Source: Actinacidiphila sp. DG2A-62
GTDB taxonomy: Bacteria > Actinomycetota > Actinomycetes > Streptomycetales > Streptomycetaceae
DNA length: 64,000 bases
Direction of reading: 5' to 3'
NCBI RefSeq assembly: GCF_035825295.1
Contig: NZ_JAYMGI010000002.1
Span: 930,001 to 994,000 of the forward strand
Of the stretch, positions 50,145 to 60,061 are shown piece by piece (the stretch's first letter is position 1; each line of letters opens with the position of its first letter). The notes below the pieces were generated by a model that saw only the letters and a list, made by a program, of their open reading frames with translations, ran no database searches and had not been told where the DNA came from. The position numbers and the translations under genes were made by a program.

Positions 50145-51775
50145 GTGGCCAGGCGTCCCCTTCCCAGCATCCTGACGAGCGGCCGGCCGGCGCTGGTCCG
50201 CGGCCGCGACATGGCCCGCAGCGCGGCCGACGGCGCGACCGACGTGCTGCACCCCGTGATCATCATCGCCCGCGGCATGCGCCGGCAGGCCGCCTGGGCG
50301 GGAGGCTGGTGGGCGCGCACCCCCAAGGACCGGCGCGGCAGGCCCTGCTGCTGGCGGCCGCGGCCGCGGTGATCGTGGTGATGATGCCCTACGGCCCGAT
50401 CCTGGCGCTGGTCGCGCTGGCCGCCTCGGCGGCGTGGATGGGCCGGGACCGCACCGCGCCGGCGCCCGCGAGCCCGACCGAGGCGGAGTCGGTGCGGCTG
50501 CAGTCGCTGTACGAGGCGCTGGTGCCCTATCTGTCGGTGCCCGGCGATCCGGCGCCGCTGTACGCGCCGGACGGCAGCTGGGAGCGGGTCTTCGACGAGT
50601 ACGCCTTCGAGGACGGCCGGCTGACCCGGCTCCACCTGCGCTACCCGGCGTACTTCACCGACGGCGAGGCGGACTCGCGGGCCAGGGTCGAGCAGTTGCT
50701 GCACGCGAAGGCGGGGCGCGGCCGGGAGTACCGCTTCGACTGGAACGAGGAGGAGAACCACGTCGGCCTCACCGTGCTGCCGCCGCTGCCGACGGACGTC
50801 GTCGCGCAGCGGTTCGTCGCCTCGCCCGGGGAGACGGTGCTCGGGTTCACCGACGCGGAGGCGGTGCAGCGGACGGTGCCGGTGGTGGTCGGCGAGGAGC
50901 GCCGCGACGCGCCGCCGGTGGTGTGGCGGACCGGCGCCCGCTCGACCGAGCCGCACCTGCTCGCGCTCGGGCAGCCCGGCACCGGGACGACCACGCTGCT
51001 GCGGTCGATCGCGCTGCAGGCGCTGCAGCACGGCGACGTGGTGGTGCTGGACGGCAGCGGGAGCGGCGAGTACGCGTTCCTGGCCGGGCGACCGGGCGTG
51101 CTGGCCGTCGAGGACGGGCTGCTCGGGGCCGCGGCCACGCTGGAGTGGGCGGCGCACGAGACGGAGCGGCGGCTGATCGCGGTCAACCGGGCGCGGCAGT
51201 CCGGCAGCCCGGTGCCCGAGGACGTACGGCGGCCGCTGTGGATCGTGGTGGACCGGCCGACCGCGCTCAGCCAGCTCGCGCACGCCGAGGGGCGGCCGGA
51301 CCCGCAGAACCTGCTCGACGTGCCGCTGCGGCACGGCAGGACCGCGAACGTCGCGGTGGCGGTGGCGGACCAGCTCGACGCGACGGAGGCGCTGGCGCCG
51401 GTGGTGGTCGCGCAGACCAGGGCGCGGGTGGTGCTGGGCGGGCTGGCGCCCGAGCATGTGGCGGCGGTGCTCGGGGAGCGGCCGCGGACGACGCCGGCCG
51501 GGGAGGTGCCGCCCGGACGCGGATACGCGCGGCTCGGGGCGGGGCCCGTGCTGCGGGTCCAGGTGCCGGTGACGCCCGATCCTTTCGACGAGGAGGCGTC
51601 CGCGTCCGCGCGGGACGCCGTCCTCTCCCTCCTCCCGGGCGCCGAGCCCCCCGCGCCCGTTCCCCCCTCCCCCGCCGCGCCGCCACAGCCGCAGCCGCAG
51701 CCGTCCGAGGCTCCGCCGGTCACCCTCCACAAGGACACGGTCATCCGCACGGTCGCGGATCTGGAGCTCAACTAG
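50145..51775 (+). CDS. sffA: SffA, SpoIIIE/FtsK-like protein (single-base frameshift near 50340)
   Basis: About 543 residues with one missing base restored. The first 65 codons (VARRPLPSILTSGRP to KDRRG) are in one frame. The next frame continues with a transmembrane pair (LLLAAAAAVIVVMMPYGPILALVALAASA) and the ATPase domain. Its P-loop region is LLALGQPGTGTTTLLRSIALQ, with TTT instead of GKS/T, and Walker B is LWIVVDRP. This weak ATPase motif is noteworthy for a translocase. GTG start with GGAG eight bases upstream. A Pro/Ser-coding repeat gap of 280 bp separates it from smeA. In S. coelicolor SffA acts at sporulation septa in chromosome segregation. The tail is Pro/Gln-rich. Confidence 0.8.
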
Positions 51776-51917
51776 GGAGGGCACCGGCGGTCCGGCCTCA
51801 CCTCGGACCACGCGGCGCCGGTGCCGTGGATCGGCCAGCGTCCGCGGCCGTGCCGCCAGTGGCCCGGTCACGACGCTGCTCCGTCCATGCCGGGCGCGTG
51901 GGGGAAGCCCTTCGTCG

Positions 51918-52340
51918 TCACTCGCCCTTCGTGCGCAGTTCCCACGGCCGCATGCCGAGGACATGCGCGATGTTCCCCTGCATCTCGACAGCGGACGGCA
52001 GCGGGCGCCACAGCACGGACAGTTCAATGATCTTGCCGTCCGAGTCGAACCGGGCGTAGTCCATCCCGTGGACCACGGTGCCCTCGATCTGCAGCCGGAA
52101 GAACGCGGACTGGTGGGCCTCGCCGCTGAGGACTTCCTCCGTGGTGAGGTCGCCCAGCTCGTAGACAGCCTGCAGAACGTCCGCGACGGCGTCGCGGCCG
52201 GTGACCGGCTCACCGAGGATCGGGCTGTTCAGCACCACCTCATCGGCGAGGCACGAAGCGACGGCGTCTTTGCCCGCGCGGCCGTCCACGCAGGCGAGGA
52301 GGGACTCGAAGGCGGTGCGGCTCTGGGGGGACGTGATCAT
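51918..52340 (-). CDS. SnoaL-like / NTF2-fold protein
   Basis: A 140-residue protein of the NTF2/SnoaL-like fold (FESLLACVDGRAGKDAVASC, VVLNSPILGEPVTGRDAV, VVHGMDYARFDSDGKIIELSVLWRP). Members include cyclases, isomerases and binding proteins; function cannot be narrowed. ATG with AAGGAAG upstream. It diverges from a TetR gene across a palindrome, so it is probably that regulator's target. Confidence 0.78.
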   Translation of the reverse strand: MITSPQSRTAFESLLACVDGRAGKDAVASCLADEVVLNSPILGEPVTGRDAVADVLQAVYELGDLTTEEVLSGEAHQSAFFRLQIEGTVVHGMDYARFDSDGKIIELSVLWRPLPSAVEMQGNIAHVLGMRPWELRTKGE

Positions 52341-52423
52341 GGCTGCTTCCTTGCTGTGCGAGACCTGGCTGATGCGTTCACCAGCCAGGGGAGCGGGCCG
52401 GGCTGCCCGACCCATGTGAGACA

Positions 52424-52442
52424 GAGTATCAAATTGAGAGTC
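52424..52442. promoter_or_regulatory. TetR-type operator between the SnoaL-like and TetR genes
   Basis: gagtatcaaattgagagtc is a 19-bp near-palindrome centred on 52433 (core TCAA-a-TTGA, 15 of 19 positions symmetric), in the only AT-rich part of the divergent spacer. Typical of a TetR binding site controlling both genes. Confidence 0.58.
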
Positions 52443-52481
52443 AGTCTTAGACGGTGAGGCCGGCAGCTATACTCGCCCGTG

Positions 52482-53099
52482 ATGGATACCTCGTCCGATC
52501 TCAGCGGCGGCACGGCCGCGACACGGCCGCTGCGAAGTCGGGCCCGCGCGGTCATGAAGGCCGAAGTGGTCGCCGTGGCGTCACGACTGTTCGACGAACA
52601 GGGGTTCGACCACACCACCGTCGACCAGATCGCCGCCGAAGCGGGGCTCTCCCGTGCGACGTTCTTCCGGTACTTCAAGACCAAGGAGGACGTCGCGCTC
52701 GACGACCTCCATGAACTAGGCCGGCGAGTCGCCGCCGCGTTCATCGCGCAACCTGACGGAGAGCAGCCGTGGACCGCCCTTCGCCATGCGTTCGACGTCA
52801 TCACCGAAGCACACGCGAGCGACCCCGAGCGCTCCCTGCGCTTCTTCACGATGATGTGTGAGACACCCTCGCTCAAGGCGCGGCACTGGCAGAAGCAGCA
52901 GCGCTGGCACGAACTGCTGGACCCGGAGATGCGCCGCCGACTCGGCCGGCCGCCCACCCCGCACGATCCGGTGGCGGCGGCGCTCGTGGGTGCCGGTCTC
53001 GCGTGTCTCGACGCAGCCACCGAAGCATGCCTGGCGTGCAACGGAACCGAAAGCCTGGCCTCGCTTCTCGACCAGTCCATGGGAGCGCTGGGCAACTGA
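52482..53099 (+). CDS. TetR-family transcriptional regulator, probably leaderless
   Basis: A 205-residue regulator. The N-terminal helix-turn-helix is at about residues 30-65 (VASRLFDEQGFDHTTVDQIA, AEAGLSRATFFRYFKTKEDV). The ligand domain is typical but uninformative. A TATACT -10 box ends nine bases before the ATG (52468-52473), so the transcript would begin at or next to the start codon and no Shine-Dalgarno is present; translation is probably leaderless. A GTG one codon earlier could also serve. It likely represses itself and the divergent SnoaL-like gene. Confidence 0.85.
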   Translation: MDTSSDLSGGTAATRPLRSRARAVMKAEVVAVASRLFDEQGFDHTTVDQIAAEAGLSRATFFRYFKTKEDVALDDLHELGRRVAAAFIAQPDGEQPWTALRHAFDVITEAHASDPERSLRFFTMMCETPSLKARHWQKQQRWHELLDPEMRRRLGRPPTPHDPVAAALVGAGLACLDAATEACLACNGTESLASLLDQSMGALGN

Positions 53100-53325
53100 G
53101 TGGCGCTGTTGGAGGTCCGCCAGACCCGGCCCCGGACCCAGGCTGCGCAGACCGTCCACGTGAACGCCGAGACGCCCGCCCCGGAGCCATCCCAGGTATG
53201 TCACGTGGTGGCACATCGCCCGAGCCGCCCTCATCCTGCTTCAGCTCTCCCACCGTCCACTCACAGGCGCGATCTATGCTGAGGCAAACGGGGTCCCGTC
53301 GTGACGCACCTGCAGGGAGACAACG

Positions 53326-53988
53326 TTGGCAAGGATCGCTCTCTTCGGCGCTACCGGAATGATCGGCAGTCGCATCTTGAGCGAGGCGCTCGATCGCGGC
53401 CATGACGTCGTGGCTGTCGTGCGCGATCGTACGAAGCTGACTCGGACTCATCCGGCCTTGCGCGTGGTGACCGGTGACGTCCTCCAGCCGACGTCGGTCA
53501 GCTCCGCCGCCAGGGGCGAAGATGTCGTGGTCAGCGCGGTCGGTGGTGGTCACGGCAACGGTCCCGGGCATCTCGCCACGGCCGAACCGGCCGTGAGATC
53601 GCTGGTGGCCGGGCTACGCGCACTCGATGGCGGCCCGGGTGGCACACGTCTGATCTCGGTCGGCGGAGCCGGATCATTGCGCGTCTCAGGGGGTAAGCGA
53701 CTCTGGGACACAGCGGGACTACCGGAGCACGCGCTCCAGATCATGCACGCAAGTGGCGACGCACTGGAATATGTCCGCACCGTCAACGACGTTCGCTGGA
53801 CGATAATTAGCCCACCCGCACGGATCGGGCCCGGTCCCCGGACCGGAACGTACCGCAGCGCGCTGGAAGACCTCGTCGTGGACGCGGACGGCGAGAGTCG
53901 GATCTCCACCGATGACTTCGCCGTTGCCGTCGTCGACGAGATCGAGCACGCACGGCACATCGGCGAGCGGTTTGCCGTGGGCTACTGA
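53326..53988 (+). CDS. NAD(P)-dependent oxidoreductase (atypical SDR)
   Basis: A 220-residue Rossmann protein (IALFGATGMIGSRILSEAL at the start; TRLISVGGAGSLRVSGGKRL, VRWTIISPPARIGPG). It resembles the biliverdin-reductase-B/NmrA-like group. The start is TTG, chosen because GGGAG lies about eight bases before it. It is the fourth small NAD(P)-binding oxidoreductase of this kind in the window. Substrate unknown. Confidence 0.83.
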   Translation: MARIALFGATGMIGSRILSEALDRGHDVVAVVRDRTKLTRTHPALRVVTGDVLQPTSVSSAARGEDVVVSAVGGGHGNGPGHLATAEPAVRSLVAGLRALDGGPGGTRLISVGGAGSLRVSGGKRLWDTAGLPEHALQIMHASGDALEYVRTVNDVRWTIISPPARIGPGPRTGTYRSALEDLVVDADGESRISTDDFAVAVVDEIEHARHIGERFAVGY

Positions 53989-54026
53989 ACTCTTCCGCGG
54001 CGTTGCGCCATGACGGCTCGTGATCT

Positions 54027-54436
54027 TCAGGCTGTTCGGTCGCGTTCCAGACGCAGTAGCGGCGGCAAGAGCCGGGGCGTGGCCGGCGAGGTCAGGCCCT
54101 CGCGCAGGTAGCGGTGGACGGTGGTGACCCGGCCGGCCGCCCCACCTCGCCGAGCGCGTGAAAGAGCCGGGTCGTGGCGTACGCCGAGTGTCCGCCTTCG
54201 TGCAGCAGAAGCGCCACGGCGCGGAACTGCGCGCCCCCGTACGGCAGATGCCGCGCGCCGCCGTGCTCGTCGTCGAGGAATTGCCACAGGGGGAGGCGGC
54301 CGCCTTGGGGTGGGACGACTTCCTCGGGGTCCGGAACCCGGGTCTCAAGAGGTAGTCGGCGAGCGATCGCCCTGGCGACCGGAGAGTGACGTCGGCGCCA
54401 AGCCCCGGTCCGCTGGCATGCCAGGGTCGGAGGCAC
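54027..54436 (-). pseudogene. Degenerate protein gene, unrecognised
   Basis: Two overlapping minus-strand frames together read like one protein: RVPDPEEVVPPQGGRLPLWQ, GGAQFRAVALLLHEGGHSAY, ATTRLFHALGEVG, then one base on VTTVHRYLREGLTSP and LLPPLLRLERDRTA-stop. A frame change near 54130-54150 breaks it and the N-terminus is unclear. The sense is plausible (helical, HTH-like) but no family comes to mind. This and flanking GC-rich DNA make up the 645-bp gap before the furan operon. Confidence 0.35.
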
Positions 54437-54633
54437 CCCGAACCCCTGCTGGCGGGGTGGCGCCCGGCGGCGGGTTCACGCCGGAGTGCGGGGCGCACGG
54501 GAGGTCGGGGCGAGCGCCCCGCGGGGCCTTCCGCACGCTCTACCGGGTGGCGGCGAGCGGCCGAAATGATGAGCGCACCGCACGGTGACCCGCACCCCCG
54601 CCCTCCCCGGCGGGGGTTCGACGGAAGGAGCCC

Positions 54634-55455
54634 ATGGTGTTGCTTCTCATCTCCCCGGACAGCGTCGAGGAAGCCCTCGACTGCGCCAAGGCCGCGGAGC
54701 ACCTCGACATCGTCGACGTCAAGAAGCCCGACGAGGGCTCGCTCGGCGCCAACTTCCCCTGGGTCATCAAGGCGATCCGCGACGCCGTCCCCGCCGACAA
54801 GCCGGTGTCCGCCACCGTGGGGGACGTGCCGTACAAGCCCGGCACGGTCGCCCAGGCCGCGCTCGGCGCGGCCGTGTCCGGCGCCACGTACATCAAGGTC
54901 GGCCTGTACGGCTGCACCACGGCCGAGCAGGGCGTCGAGGTGATGCGCGGGGTCGTCCGGGCGGTGAAGGACCACCGTCCGGACGCGCTGGTCGTCGCCT
55001 CCGGCTACGCCGACGCCCACCGGATCGGCTGCGTCAACCCGTTGGCCCTGCCCGGCATCGCCGCACGCTCCGGCGCGGACGCGGCCATGCTCGACACCGC
55101 GATCAAGGACGGCTCGCGGCTGTTCGACCACGTGCCGCCGGACGTGTGCGGCGAGTTCGTCCGGCTCACCCACGCCGCCGGCCTGTTCGCCGCCCTCGCC
55201 GGCAGCGTCAAGCAGGCGGACCTCGGCGAGCTGACCCGGATCGGCACGGACATCGTCGGCGTGCGCGGCGCGGTCTGCGAGGGCGGCGACCGCACCGCAG
55301 GAAGGATTCAGCCGCACCTGGTGGCCGCCTTCCGCGCGGAGATGGACCGGTGCGCCCGGGAGCACGCGACCGCGGGTTCCGCGGTCCCGGCCGTTCCCCC
55401 GCAGCTGACCGGTCCCACCGGTGCGGCCGCTTCCGCCGTCCCCGCCGCCGGCTGA
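54634..55455 (+). CDS. mfnB: MfnB-like 4-(hydroxymethyl)-2-furancarboxaldehyde-phosphate synthase
   Basis: Class I-aldolase-like enzyme that condenses two glyceraldehyde-3-phosphates into the furan 4-HFC-P, the first step of methanofuran synthesis in methanogens. The 273 residues match the family closely at [40 protein letters not shown] and [10 protein letters not shown]. The catalytic residues of the Methanocaldococcus enzyme (Lys27, Lys85, Asp151) fall on Lys30, Lys88 and Asp154 with a constant offset of three. About 35 Ala/Pro-rich residues extend the C-terminus. GGAAGG precedes the ATG. It is the first gene of a four-gene operon; later methanofuran genes (MfnC, MfnD) are absent, so the furan is used for something else. 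Confidence 0.87.
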
Positions 55456-55463
55456 CCGCCGGC

Positions 55464-56873
55464 ATGCCGACATCCGCACCCGGCCGCGGCGTCCCCGGCC
55501 GCCGGGCCGCGACGTTCGCCGTCCTCGACCCGGCCACCGGTGAAGCCGTCGACGAGTGCCCCGACCAGCGGCCGGAGGAGCTGGACGCGGTGGTCGACCG
55601 GGCCCACCGGGCCTGGCCGGCGTGGCGCGCCGACCCGGCCGCCCGCAGCGGTGCGCTGCGGGCTGCGGCCGACGCGGTGGAGGCGGCCGGCGACACTCTG
55701 GCCCAGCTGCTCACCCGCGAGCAGGGCAAGCCGCTGGCCGAGTCCTGCGCGGAGGTCGCCCGGACCGCGGCCCGCCTGCGCTACTTCGCCGGCCTGGCCC
55801 CCAGGACCCGGCGGATCGACGACGGCCGGCCGGTGGACAGCGAGGTCCGCTGGCGGCCGGTCGGGCCCGTCGCCGCGATCGTGCCGTGGAACTTCCCGCT
55901 GCAGCTCGCGGCGGCGAAGTTCGCGCCCGCGCTCGCGGCGGGCAACCCCGTCGTCCTCAAGCCGTCCCCGTTCACCCCGCTGGCCACCCGGCTGCTCGGC
56001 TCGGTGCTCGCCGCGGTCCTGCCCGAGGACGTGCTGACCGTGGTGACCGGCCGCGAACCGCTCGGCGCGCGGCTCGTCGCGCACCCGGGCATCCGGCACG
56101 TCACCTTCACCGGCTCGGTGCCCACCGGGCGGGCCGTGGCGGCCGGCGCGGCGGCCTCGCTCGCCCGCGTCACCCTGGAGCTGGGCGGCAACGACGCGGC
56201 CGTGCTGCTGGACGACGTCGAGGTGGACCGGATCGCCGACCGGCTGTTCTGGGCGGCGTTCCGCAACTGCGGCCAGGTCTGCATGGCGGTCAAGCGGGTC
56301 TACGTCCCGGCACGCCGCCACGCGGAGGTGGTCGAGGCCCTCGCCGAGCGGGCGAAGTCCGTCGCCGTGGGGCCGGGGCTCGACCCGCGCACCCGGCTGG
56401 GCCCGGTCAACAACGCCGACCAGCTGGCCCGGGTCCTGCGGGTCACCGAGCAGGCGCTGGCCGACGGCGCCCGGGCGGCGGCCGGCGGCCACCGGCTGGA
56501 CCGGCCGGGCCACTTCTTCGCCCCCACGGTCCTCACCGACGTGTCCCCGGACAGCGCGGTGGTGACCGAGGAGCAGTTCGGACCGGTGCTGCCGGTGCTG
56601 CCGTACCGGAGCGTGGACGAGGCGGTCGAGGCGGCCAACGGCACCGGCTTCGGGCTGGGCGGCTCGGTGTGGGGCGCCGACCTCGACCGGGCCGAGGCGG
56701 TGGCCGAGCGCCTCGAGTGCGGCACGGCCTGGATCAACCACCACGCCGAACTCTCCCTCGCGCAGCCCTTCGCGGGCGTGAAGGACAGCGGCGTCGGCGT
56801 CGCGGGCGGCCCGTGGGGGCTCTACGGCAATCTGCGGCCGTTCGTCGTCCACCGGCCCAGGGAGGAGGTGTGA
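55464..56873 (+). CDS. Aldehyde dehydrogenase
   Basis: A 469-residue NAD(P)-dependent enzyme of the succinate-semialdehyde/benzaldehyde dehydrogenase type. Motifs: VPWNFPLQLAAAKFAPALAAGN, FTGSVPTGRAVA, general base Glu in LELGGNDAAV, nucleophile Cys in RNCGQVCMAVKRV, and EEQFGPVLPVLPY. It begins nine bases after the MfnB-like gene and overlaps or abuts the alcohol-dehydrogenase gene at its end. In this setting it could oxidise the furan aldehyde to a furoic acid. The long frame upstream of its ATG is an artefact. Confidence 0.9.
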   Translation: MPTSAPGRGVPGRRAATFAVLDPATGEAVDECPDQRPEELDAVVDRAHRAWPAWRADPAARSGALRAAADAVEAAGDTLAQLLTREQGKPLAESCAEVARTAARLRYFAGLAPRTRRIDDGRPVDSEVRWRPVGPVAAIVPWNFPLQLAAAKFAPALAAGNPVVLKPSPFTPLATRLLGSVLAAVLPEDVLTVVTGREPLGARLVAHPGIRHVTFTGSVPTGRAVAAGAAASLARVTLELGGNDAAVLLDDVEVDRIADRLFWAAFRNCGQVCMAVKRVYVPARRHAEVVEALAERAKSVAVGPGLDPRTRLGPVNNADQLARVLRVTEQALADGARAAAGGHRLDRPGHFFAPTVLTDVSPDSAVVTEEQFGPVLPVLPYRSVDEAVEAANGTGFGLGGSVWGADLDRAEAVAERLECGTAWINHHAELSLAQPFAGVKDSGVGVAGGPWGLYGNLRPFVVHRPREEV

Positions 56874-56875
56874 CG

Positions 56876-58050
56876 GTGCGGTTCCAGGCGGCGGTCCTGC
56901 GGGCGTACGAAGAGCCGTTTACGGTCGAGGAGGTGGTGCTGCGGGCGGAGCCCGGAGCCGGCGAGATCCTGGTCGAGATAGCGGGCTGCGGGATGTGCGG
57001 GACCGATCTCGCGGTCCGCCGCTCGGGCGGGCGCAGCCCGCTGCCGGCGGTGCTCGGCCACGAGGGGCCGGCGTGGTGGTCCGCACCGGCGGGCCGGGCG
57101 ACGGTACGGAGGCCGGCGGCGCCTCGGGCGGCGCCTCGGGCGGCGGCTCGGGCGGCGGCTCGGGCGGCGACACCGCCATTGCGGTCGGCGACCACGTCGT
57201 GCTGAGCTTCGACTCCTGCGGGCACTGCCGCAACTGCCGCGCCGCGGCCCCCGCCTACTGCGACTCCTTCGCCTCCCTCAACCTCTTCGGCGGCCGGGCG
57301 GAGGACCCGCCCCGGCTCACCGACGCGTCCGGCGCGGCGCTGGCCCCGCGGTGGTTCGGCCAGTCCTCCTTCGCCCGGTACGCGCTCGTGCCGGCCCGCA
57401 ACGCCGTGCGCGTCGACCCCGCGCTGCCCCTCGCCCTGCTCGGACCGCTCGGCTGCGGCTTCCTCACCGGAGCGGGCGCCGTGCTGAACTCCTTCGCAGC
57501 GGGGCCGGGCGACACCCTCGTGGTCCTCGGCGCGGGCGCGGTGGGCCTGGCCGCGGTGATGGCGGCCACCGCCGCGGGCGCGGTCACGGTGGCCGTCGAC
57601 CGGCACCCCGGGCGGCTCGAACTGGCGGAACGCTTCGGCGCGGTCGCGCTGTCCGCGGGGACGGCCAGGCTGCCCGAGCGCATCCGGCGGCTGACCGGCG
57701 GCGGCGCGCAGTACGCGCTGGACACCACGGCCTCGCCCGCGCTCGTCAACGACGCGCTGCGGGCGCTGCGCCCCACCGGCACGCTCGGCCTGGTGGCACG
57801 GCTGCACGCCGCGCTGCCGCTGGAGCCGGGCACGCTGGACCGGGGCCGGGCCGTCCGCCACATCTGCGAGGGGGACGCCGTCCCCGCCCTGTTGATCCCC
57901 CGGCTGATCGGGCTGTGGCGGGCCGGGCGGTTCCCCTTCGACCAGCTGATCCGCACCTATCCGCTGACCGAGGTCAACGAGGCCGAACGCGACTGCGACG
58001 CGGGCCGCGTGGTCAAACCCGTGCTGCTACCGGAGGGAACGAGCCGATGA
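56876..58050 (+). CDS. Zinc-dependent alcohol dehydrogenase (MDR) with a Gly/Ser insert; single-base frameshift near 57065
   Basis: About 392 residues after restoring one base. The catalytic-zinc motif GCGMCGTDLAV and VLGHEG are in the first frame. The second frame continues with the structural-zinc cluster CGHCRNCRAAAPAYC, GFLTGAGAVLN and the cofactor loop VLGAGAVGLAAV. It is closest to aryl/benzyl alcohol dehydrogenases. Right after GHEG there is an insertion of GGASGGASGGGSGGGSGG encoded by 12-bp repeats, an unusual flexible loop in the catalytic domain. The GTG start is eight bases after GGAGGAGG. It ends in an ATGA overlap with the methyltransferase gene. It would interconvert furan aldehyde and alcohol. 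Confidence 0.83.
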
Positions 58051-59126
58051 GTTACGTGGAACGCGTCGAGCCGGAACACGTCGGGGCGCAGGCGCAGGCG
58101 TCCGGGGCCCCGGGCGCCGGCGCCCCGGCCCTGGGCCAGGACCTGGACCCGGGCCCGGGCCCGGGCCCGGACCCAAGCCCGGACATGGCCCTGGACCTCG
58201 ACGCGGTCGCGGGCCGGTACGCCGACGCCCGCGGGGACGGCGTGGACGCGGGCGTCGGCCTGACCGCCCTGCTGGTGGCCGCCGCCCGCGCGATCGAGAC
58301 CCACCGCCACGACAGCCTGGCCCAGGACCCCTACGCGGAGCACTTCGTGCGCGCCGCGCCCGCCTGCGCGCGGTGGCCGGTGCGCATCGAGCAGGTCCCG
58401 GCCGGCGACCGCGACCCGCTGTGGGGCCGGTTCGCCCGCTATTTCGGCCTGCGCACCCGGGCTCTGGACGACTTCGTCATCCGGTCCCTCGGGGCGGACG
58501 GGCCGCACGGGCCGGGCGCGCGGCAGGTGGTGCTGCTGGGCGCGGGGTTGGACACCCGCGCGTTCCGGCTGGACTGGCCGCCGCACTGCACGGTCTTCGA
58601 AGTGGACAGGGCGGGCGTGCTGGCGTTCAAGCACCGGGTACTCGCGGACCTGTCGGCGGTGCCGCTGGCGCGGCGCGTGACCGTCCCGGTCGACCTGCGC
58701 GACGACTGGGTGAGCGCTCTGACCGCCGCCGGCTTCGACCCGGCCGCTCCCAGCGTCTGGCTGGCCGAGGGGCTGCTGTTCTACCTGCCGAGCGCCGCCG
58801 AGAGGTATCTGATCGACACGGTGGACGAACTGGCCGCCGGGGGAAGCGCGCTGGCCTTCGAGGCCAAGCTGGAGCGGGACCTGCTGGCGTACCGCGACAG
58901 CGCGATCTACACCGCGACGCGCGAGCAGATCGGCATCGACCTGCTCCGCCTCTTCGACAAGGGCCCGCGCCCGGACTCCGCGGGCGACCTGCGGGCCAAG
59001 GGCTGGTCGGCCGTGATGCGCACGCCCTTCGACTTCACCGACCGGTACGGCCGCGGCCCGCTGCCCGAGCCGAACGACGCGCTGGAGGGCAACCGCTGGG
59101 TGTTCGCGCACAAGCCCCGGAGCTGA
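58047..59126 (+). CDS. Class I methyltransferase of the LCMT/PPM type
   Basis: A 359-residue SAM-dependent methyltransferase resembling leucine carboxyl methyltransferases and the actinobacterial TIGR00027 family. Motifs: GLTALLVAAARAIET, DPYAEHFVRAA, QVVLLGAGLDTRAFRLDW, TVFEVDRAGVLAFK and WLAEGLLFYLP. The first 50 residues are a Gly/Pro/Asp-rich tail (GPGPGPDPSPD). The ATG overlaps the alcohol-dehydrogenase stop by four bases, so it is the last gene of the furan operon. Carboxyl methylation of a furoic acid is a reasonable guess. Confidence 0.85.
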   Translation: MSYVERVEPEHVGAQAQASGAPGAGAPALGQDLDPGPGPGPDPSPDMALDLDAVAGRYADARGDGVDAGVGLTALLVAAARAIETHRHDSLAQDPYAEHFVRAAPACARWPVRIEQVPAGDRDPLWGRFARYFGLRTRALDDFVIRSLGADGPHGPGARQVVLLGAGLDTRAFRLDWPPHCTVFEVDRAGVLAFKHRVLADLSAVPLARRVTVPVDLRDDWVSALTAAGFDPAAPSVWLAEGLLFYLPSAAERYLIDTVDELAAGGSALAFEAKLERDLLAYRDSAIYTATREQIGIDLLRLFDKGPRPDSAGDLRAKGWSAVMRTPFDFTDRYGRGPLPEPNDALEGNRWVFAHKPRS

Positions 59127-59127
59127 T

Positions 59128-59499
59128 TCAGACGGAGTGGGCGGCGCCGCGTACCGAGCTGCGGCGCGGGGCGGCGCCGTGGGCGTTGGGGCCGTGGGCG
59201 CCGTCGAGGGCCTGGAGCACGGCCACCGCGATCCACCCGACCGGCGGGAGCAGCAGGAGAAGCTGCCACCAGCCGGAACGGCCGGTGTCGTGCAGCCGGC
59301 GGCAGCCGGCTGCCAGGCCGGGGACGATCACCGCCAGGCCGTAGAGCAGGTCCGGCAGCCGGGTCCCGATCACCGTGTCGACACAGACCAGAAGTGTCGC
59401 CACCACGATGTTGACCAGGACGAAGAACCAGTATTCGGTGCGGGAGGCCCGGCCGCCGAACACGGCGTACTTCTCCCAGGCGCGTAAGTACCAGTGCAT
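59128..59499 (-). CDS. DUF805 membrane protein
   Basis: A 123-residue inner-membrane protein of the DUF805 family (WYLRAWEKYAVFGGRASRTEYW, then three or four hydrophobic helices and LHDTGRSGWWQLLLL, the family signature RLHDtgrSGWW). Function unknown. ATG with AGGAGG upstream. Its 3' end lies one base from the end of the furan operon, which is convergent. Confidence 0.85.
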   Translation of the reverse strand: MHWYLRAWEKYAVFGGRASRTEYWFFVLVNIVVATLLVCVDTVIGTRLPDLLYGLAVIVPGLAAGCRRLHDTGRSGWWQLLLLLPPVGWIAVAVLQALDGAHGPNAHGAAPRRSSVRGAAHSV

Positions 59500-59749
59500 G
59501 ATCCGCCTCCTGTGGTTCGGGGTGGGGCCCCGCCGCCGCGTCCTCGGGCGGTGGGGTCCGCCTACTGGTGCGGCTGCCCCTGTTCGGCGGCGGCATTCGC
59601 CTGATGGCCCGTCAGGACGCCTGCCCGGTGCGGCGCTCGCGGTCGGCGATCGCGACGGAAGCGCGGAGGGGACGCATGGCGCCGTGTGTGCGGGTAGGCG
59701 GTCGGACGGGGGAGACCATCGACCCACCCGACCTTTCGGAGGAATCACC

Positions 59750-60016
59750 ATGGACTGGCGGAACCAGGCCAGGTGCAAGGACGCGGACCCCGAGCTCTTC
59801 TTCGCCGTGGGGACCGCGGGTCCGGCTCTGCTGCAGATCCAGAAGGCCAAGGCCGTCTGCGGCCGGTGCCCCGTGCGGGAGCAGTGCCTGCAGTGGGCGC
59901 TGGAAGAGCGCCAGGAGTACGGCGTGTGGGGCGGCATGTCCGAGGACGAACGCCGCGCGCTGCGCCGCCGCATGTCCCGTCAGGGCGCGAAGGCCGGGTC
60001 GGGCCGGCGGAGTTGA
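59750..60016 (+). CDS. WhiB-like iron-sulphur regulator (WblE-type)
   Basis: An 88-residue WhiB-family protein. The four cluster cysteines are present: ARCKDADPELFF, then AVCGRCPVREQCLQW (Cx2Cx5C). The GVWGG turn and a basic C-terminus (RRALRRRMSRQGAKAG) follow. It closely resembles WblE/WhiB1 in length and in the PELFF..GPALLQI pattern. GGAGGAATCACC precedes the ATG. Such proteins bind a [4Fe-4S] cluster and the principal sigma factor, sensing NO or redox state. Confidence 0.9.
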   Translation: MDWRNQARCKDADPELFFAVGTAGPALLQIQKAKAVCGRCPVREQCLQWALEERQEYGVWGGMSEDERRALRRRMSRQGAKAGSGRRS

Positions 60017-60061
60017 GCCGCCGTCGCCCTCGGGCGGGCGACGGACGCCCTGGGCCGGGCC

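Follow-up and report, generated by a model that had tools for sequence, protein, structure and literature searches.

What does an enzyme of the MfnB family, known from methanofuran biosynthesis, make in a streptomycete, and do the genes that accompany it form a pathway of their own? The question is raised by a locus of Actinacidiphila sp. DG2A-62 (genome G000, 8.6 Mb), in which the gene for an MfnB-family synthase is followed by genes for an aldehyde dehydrogenase (ALDH), a zinc-dependent alcohol dehydrogenase (ADH) and a methyltransferase (MT). The locus lies in a stretch of 64,000 nucleotides (contig C2, positions 930001–994000) that we refer to as the window and to which all coordinates relate unless a locus is named. 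An original prediction, made from the DNA letters, had read the four genes as an operon for a furan metabolite. Our analysis makes it fairly probable that this cassette is a mobile, largely self-contained pathway whose end product is a small furan with substituents at C2 and C4, either an acid or an ester, and not a methanofuran. MfnB is already named as such in public annotation; searches of the open-access literature in PMC gave, among the papers listed, no account of an MfnB pathway in streptomycetes or of its product. A literature match for ProFaNA was discarded, as it concerns another family, DUF5565. Papers on furan-2,4-dicarboxylic acid appear, from their listing, to deal with chemistry and polymers, and a literature search on the carboxyl methyltransferase TcmP yielded nothing relevant. 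The genes of the cassette are as follows.

54634..55455, plus strand: MfnB-family synthase of 4-(hydroxymethyl)-2-furancarboxaldehyde phosphate (4-HFC-P), assigned by PF04476, NF002573, the structures 4rc1/4u9p and catalytic residues
55464..56873, plus strand: ALDH, PF00171 match of 468 bits
56876..57064, plus strand: zinc ADH, N-terminal part, frame 2, ADH_N match
57065..58050, plus strand: zinc ADH, C-terminal part, frame 1, ADH_zinc_N match
58047..59126, plus strand: MT of the LCM/TIGR00027 family, dependent on S-adenosylmethionine (SAM), predicted carboxylate O-methyltransferase

The first gene encodes an MfnB-family enzyme

The product of the first gene matched PF04476 with 262 bits, where the cut-off is 22.4, and scored 386 bits with NF002573, an NCBIfam equivalog whose cut-off is 341; in a phmmer search the single PDB sequence matched was MJ1099 of Methanocaldococcus jannaschii (4rc1, 277 bits). 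Residues D25, K27, K85, D151 and K155 of MJ1099 correspond to D28, K30, K88, D154 and K158 of the window protein, and the alignment shows each of the five unchanged in all 80 relatives. Catalytic roles are described for K27, which forms a Schiff base, and for K155 (PMC6604932, PMC11365854), and two lysines and two aspartates are reported to be essential (PMC6604932). The claim that the synthase keeps its catalytic residues at a constant offset holds for all five positions, the offset being +3, and together with the two family matches this bears out the reading of the locus as a furan pathway headed by an MfnB-family enzyme. D25, K85 and D151 are further positions that we take to be catalytic. 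Judged by these matches and residues, the window protein is a genuine MfnB-family enzyme, and it is predicted to perform the 4-HFC-P synthase reaction. Family, five residues and predicted reaction are thereby shared with MfnB of methanofuran biosynthesis (MJ1099), from which the streptomycete system differs in the partners ALDH, ADH and MT and in the absence of FTR and MCH, described below.

Translation likely begins at GTG 54637 and not at ATG 54634. The former is the start in two of three annotated plasmid homologues, the start of the third being placed further upstream, and an ATG stands at the position of ATG 54634 in just 20 of the 80 sequences of the alignment, one of which is that of the window.

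The four genes recur together

Relatives' loci were collected by a contig scan with MfnB as the sole query, and the best 80 of the 196 loci found were analyzed, so that the set favors close homologues. Gene starts and gaps in these loci come from a purpose-made, GC-based gene caller. Counting genes detected at all, the 80 loci contain MfnB 80 times, ADH 79 times, and ALDH and MT 78 times each. Under a strict count, for which ALDH was called intact when at least 430 of 469 residues were covered and ADH and MT had merely to be present, 72 of the 80 loci contain all four genes, including a nearly full-length ALDH; 64 of these 72 share order and strand, and in the other eight MT is reversed. The remaining eight loci fall into four with a partly deleted ALDH, two with no ALDH above threshold, one without MT and one at a contig end (L087, where the contig stops just past mfnB). 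The original prediction proposed a search for the same four-gene order in other actinobacteria, and this search retrieved it, on the same strand, in 64 of 80 loci.

Neighboring genes were clustered into families at 40% identity within 10 kb, and families in at least eight loci were considered. Apart from a gene for an EF-hand protein, no neighbor family occurs in more than ten of the 80 loci. The linkage of the four genes exceeds chance, because they recur together while their other neighbors, the EF-hand gene apart, mostly differ. Pairwise distance matrices of the four proteins, calculated for the 68 loci in which all four called proteins lay within set length ranges, correlate with r values of 0.78–0.87 against a null maximum of 0.19 (no species-tree comparison was included); this correlation shows co-inheritance, not function.

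The spacing within the cassette had been described precisely, and the gap of eight nucleotides between the MfnB and ALDH genes stands (open reading frames (ORFs) 54634–55455 and 55464–56873); the same spacing was called in 57 of 76 loci. The ATGA overlap leading into the MT gene is present in the window and atypical of the family, being found in seven of 78 loci. ALDH is almost complete in 73 of the 80 loci.

Insertion, distribution and mobility

The cassette was proposed to lie in an insertion that splits a conserved chromosomal block, and hence to have been acquired. The insertion is delimited as follows.

51776..60040, no strand: inserted block, flanked by an FtsK-like gene and the gene for a MocR-type regulator, without matching DNA in nine same-genus stretches

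This block of roughly 8 kb contains genes for SnoaL-like, TetR and NmrA-like proteins, the four-gene cassette, and genes for DUF805 and WhiB proteins. The FtsK-like gene, which ends at 51775 in the window, is close to RbpA in nine of 12 same-genus genomes; the remaining three have the pair widely separated or split between contigs. In all nine same-genus stretches across the site, the match to the window jumps from about 51.6–51.8 kb to about 60.0 kb with 0.1–1.1 kb in between, and none of them contains DNA of the insertion block (matches of at least 120 nucleotides). This absence from nine of nine stretches confirms the insertion and supports its acquisition, the two parts of the proposal. 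An integrative element was considered and rejected: the borders lack a tRNA gene and their end repeats do not exceed chance. Two neighbors were likewise rejected as parts of the pathway, the NmrA-like gene, which occurs in none of the 80 loci, and the TetR gene (52479–53099), which occurs in one, at 40% identity.

A strong MfnB is encoded in 18 of 60 relatives; its identity is 80% or higher in 17 of them, each of which has an adjoining ALDH gene. When MfnB only was sought in a sample of 394 Streptomycetaceae genomes, 88 matched at E ≤ 1e-3, G000 included; seven of these matches are weak and 81 strong (80 at at least 80% identity, and one, in genome G006, at 51%). In a sample of the phylum, seven of 396 genomes matched, namely G000, two other Streptomycetaceae, two weak matches and two strong matches outside the family; the latter, at 44–46% identity, adjoin genes of one-carbon (C1) type by our reading of the ORFs. 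The closest named homologues at the cassette locus belong to Streptomyces and its allies, and all four genes were also found in three loci of a second family of the same order (L122–L124). Within the genus, four genomes with contigs the size of a chromosome (G002, G005, G007 and G034) have mfnB at most about 230 kb from a contig end; in G000 it is almost 1 Mb from the nearer end. Thirteen plasmid records of Streptomyces and Streptantibioticus, several of them near-duplicates, encode MfnB at 84–90% identity. The plasmid search also returned 17 MfnB homologues from outside the streptomycetes among the matches listed, 29–35% identical to the window protein. Acquisition is supported by the plasmid copies, the loci in a second family and the absence of the insertion from relatives, and the cassette is a mobile gene set of streptomycetes.

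The MfnB of G006 is a paralogue (L113:9381–10157) that is 51–53% identical and carries E in place of K27 and R in place of K85. Its gene adjoins those for a UbiA prenyltransferase, an isopentenyl phosphate kinase (NF040647, above cut-off) and an aminotransferase, and it may be an MfnB that has taken on a new function within a terpenoid-like cluster.

Predicted pathway and product

MfnB makes 4-HFC-P (PMC6604932). In the cassette, as family and residues suggest, the enzyme would join two molecules of D-glyceraldehyde-3-phosphate to this compound. To judge by its name, 4-HFC-P is a 2-formylfuran whose C4 bears a phosphomethyl group. The phosphate would be removed by a phosphatase from outside the cassette, probably a housekeeping enzyme, ADH and ALDH would oxidize the side chains to a furan carboxylic acid, and MT may cap the carboxylate as a methyl ester. 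Ring formation, dephosphorylation, oxidation and methylation would in sum lead to a small 2,4-substituted furan acid or ester.

The oxidation step draws on the subfamily of the ADH. The nearest solved chains to its C-terminal part are 5tnx (246 bits; substrate not stated) and 1f8f (206 bits), a benzyl alcohol dehydrogenase, and the next follows at 112 bits; this likeness would suit a furan-methanol substrate. The ALDH does not reach the cut-off of any of the 25 NCBIfam families among the matches listed. The prediction of a carboxyl-methyltransferase-like protein is upheld by matches of the MT to PF04072 (184 bits, cut-off 22.3) and TIGR00027 (251 bits), and its nearest solved structures are ML2640 and Rv0731c. 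LCM-type enzymes such as LCMT-1 and TcmP methylate carboxylates. Family and SAM domain are thus common to the cassette MT and the known LCM/TIGR00027 methyltransferases (ML2640, Rv0731c, TcmP). Among plasmid records, MT identity falls from 72% straight to 54%; fourteen records, several of them near-duplicates, lie above this gap, and 13 of them also carry MfnB. A search of the window genome with the MT gave no further match at E ≤ 0.001.

Several observations weigh against a pathway that always runs through all four enzymes to the same ester. ALDH has been lost wholly or partly in six of the 80 loci and on the S. cattleyicolor plasmid, with ADH and MT kept. In the partly deleted genes the ends tend to persist and the middle is gone, so that loss of ALDH has occurred more than once, with MfnB, ADH and MT retained. 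The acid may therefore have another source, or the product may vary, and the losses argue against this ALDH alone feeding acid to the MT. The MT itself is coupled loosely to the rest of the cassette: its gene is on the opposite strand in eight of 78 loci and missing from locus L085. On a plasmid of Streptomyces sp. NBC_00846 (L140), MT and EF-hand genes occur and the plasmid search gave no close MfnB match, so that the MT may have another role. Finally, no candidate phosphatase recurs within 10 kb of the cassette in the 80 loci.

The loci with ALDH gone or internally deleted and MfnB, ADH and MT kept are L023, L034, L051, L054, L059, L095 and L106.

An EF-hand protein is a frequent partner

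A gene for an EF-hand protein (PF13499) accompanies the cassette in 37 of the 80 loci. It lies downstream on the strand opposite mfnB in 30 cases, downstream on the same strand in two and upstream in five; in the second family of the order it immediately precedes mfnB, on the same strand, in seven of seven loci, with a spacing of 23 nucleotides between the called ORFs in L124. Examples are given below.

L124:7734–8273: EF-hand gene, with equivalents in L014–L020
L045:14373–14915: EF-hand gene

Two separate arrangements suggest a functional tie between the EF-hand gene and the cassette, and the EF-hand protein may be considered a frequent partner of the pathway in relatives. It is not encoded next to the cassette of the window, the best match in that genome being a distant homologue of 64% identity.

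Combining these data, one may picture a five-component system of EF-hand protein, MfnB, ALDH, aryl-ADH and carboxyl MT that streptomycetes exchange on plasmids and near chromosome ends and that would convert glyceraldehyde-3-phosphate directly into a new 2,4-disubstituted furan, active outside the cell and tied to calcium via the EF-hand protein; we put this forward as a speculative and, taken as a whole, rather unlikely proposal. Its product may be furan-2,4-dicarboxylate or a formyl-furoate methyl ester, for example. Few routes to a small aromatic molecule would be as short as the formation of a furan ring from a central metabolite in a single step, and roughly one in five of the Streptomycetaceae genomes sampled encodes the first enzyme, MfnB. 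A new product, if it is one, could represent a signal or metabolite that has been overlooked in intensively studied bacteria, for which Streptomyces coelicolor, with its own mfnB, offers a model strain. Nature's enzymes of the cassette could also guide the making of bio-based furan acids.

The plasmid of Streptomyces sp. NBC_00846 carries its MT and EF-hand genes at L140:5962–8573, where a metallophosphoesterase gene follows.

Relation to methanofuran and methylofuran

FTR (PF01913) and MCH (PF02289) were each found in none of 21 genomes, G000 included; in positive controls, the searches detected them in two and three, respectively, of 14 named genomes, methanogens among them. The view that the set lies outside methanofuran metabolism is strengthened by this result, and a methanofuran coenzyme role as the principal reading was dropped. 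Neither MfnE nor MfnF nor fhc genes recur among the neighbors of the cassette in the 80 loci, to which this search was confined. The methylofuran cluster of Methylorubrum extorquens contains Orf22/MfnB, Orf21/MfnE and Orf9/MfnF (PMC8141765) and resembles the streptomycete cassette in having a bacterial MfnB homologue inside a gene cluster; it differs in that fhc, MfnE and MfnF do not recur at the latter. The cassette suggests a use of MfnB beyond one-carbon metabolism.

The cassette might nevertheless supply a furan precursor for a methylofuran-like coenzyme or a larger natural product that is assembled elsewhere. The known role of MfnB is in methanofuran and methylofuran synthesis (PMC8141765, PMC11365854), and two distant actinobacterial homologues, L114 and L115, have neighboring ORFs that we read as kinase-like and formylmethanofuran-dehydrogenase-like. 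Set against the absence of FTR and MCH from all 21 genomes, with positive controls, and against the lack of any gene family other than EF-hand in more than ten of the 80 loci within 10 kb, this makes precursor supply improbable. We retain the reading of a small furan acid or ester as the end product.

Upstream DNA and the case for a signal

Column identity among 80 sequences is 0.67–0.81 within about 175 bp 5′ of mfnB versus 0.43–0.49 beyond. An alignment of 40 of the 81 stretches contains near-invariant blocks within this DNA.

54462..54636, plus strand: conserved DNA ahead of mfnB, resembling a promoter or operator and containing blocks that match CCCTACCGG and AATGATGAGC

An RNA element was rejected, as the consensus fold is near zero (−0.21 kcal/mol, four pairs) and no Rfam match lies there; the sole Rfam hit, at 58130–58194, is far below the gathering score. 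With neither an RNA fold nor an Rfam match upstream, promoter or operator DNA is preferred. In Streptomyces coelicolor, mfnB is SCO6440, which is listed among the up-regulated genes in a study of AbrB1/B2 (PMC7581861), and SCO6439, the next in number, is reported as a putative DNA-binding protein up-regulated by pH shock (PMC2631018).

Regulatory-looking DNA ahead of a gene set with a small furan acid or ester as its predicted product calls to mind a diffusible autoregulator that works like the methylenomycin furans (MMFs), a parallel already drawn in the original prediction. MMFs are furan acids that induce methylenomycin (PMC6604932), and the MmfL/MmfH/MmfP system and the cassette have in common that streptomycete furan carboxylic acids are possible products. 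The MMF ring has been proposed to arise from dihydroxyacetone phosphate and a beta-ketoacyl thioester by the action of MmfL (PMC6604932), and none of the four cassette proteins has an AfsA/MmfL-type domain. Moreover, no dedicated receptor recurs among the neighbor families of the 80 loci, the TetR gene adjoining the cassette in a single one. We therefore regard an autoregulator of this kind as quite unlikely and keep to a furan acid or ester of the cassette's own making.

The interrupted alcohol dehydrogenase gene

The ADH gene does follow ALDH at a gap of two nucleotides, as originally described, and it is not a single open frame: beginning with GTG 56876, it is split over two frames near 57065. 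Both parts lie within one called ORF in all 79 loci that hold the gene, and in 77 of these the protein comprises 360–383 amino acids; the exceptions are L046, with one long ORF that includes MT, and L095, with a break of its own further on.

Two explanations compete. The break could be a true pseudogene mutation that leaves the cassette of the window genome inactive, for which the two frames, a G/S-rich repeat at about 57118–57170 in the C-terminal part that is missing in most relatives, and the broken ADH of L095 can be cited. However, the ADH sequence to either side of the break agrees with the family consensus in the alignment, and the ADH gene is not the only one affected. Leaving it aside, three of 18 conserved window genes are broken in frame when compared with G002 and three of 17 when compared with G007, the same three in both cases.

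~36.2 kb: frame break, intact in two relatives
~38.0 kb: frame break, intact in two relatives
~50.35 kb: frame break in the FtsK-like gene, intact in two relatives

Comparing G002 and G007 with each other as a control gave no frame-broken gene in either direction (0 of 30 and 0 of 29), and a further control with window ORFs against G002 gave 0 of 17. The completeness of the window genome is 95.57%, and 30 of 34 same-genus genomes reach at least 98%. Because three of 18 other genes are broken versus none of 30 in the control pair, the ADH break is most likely an indel error of the assembly, and a genuine pseudogene is a doubtful alternative.

As a relative of 1f8f, its nearest solved relative with a named substrate, the ADH together with the ALDH follows the alcohol–aldehyde–acid logic of aryl-ADH and ALDH pairs. 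Such pairs are common in aromatic aldehyde metabolism, and yet it is very improbable that the cassette enzymes merely detoxify furan aldehydes or serve generic redox purposes with an incidental link to MfnB, as a search with MfnB alone retrieved loci in which ADH, ALDH and MT adjoin it in 78–79 of 80 cases (ALDH being partial in some) amid mostly unrelated flanks. Since their genes accompany those for a furan synthase and a methyltransferase, ADH and ALDH of the cassette are probably biosynthetic and not catabolic as in aryl-ADH pairs.

In L046, ADH and MT were called as a single ORF of 699 amino acids, which is either a natural fusion or a sequencing artefact.

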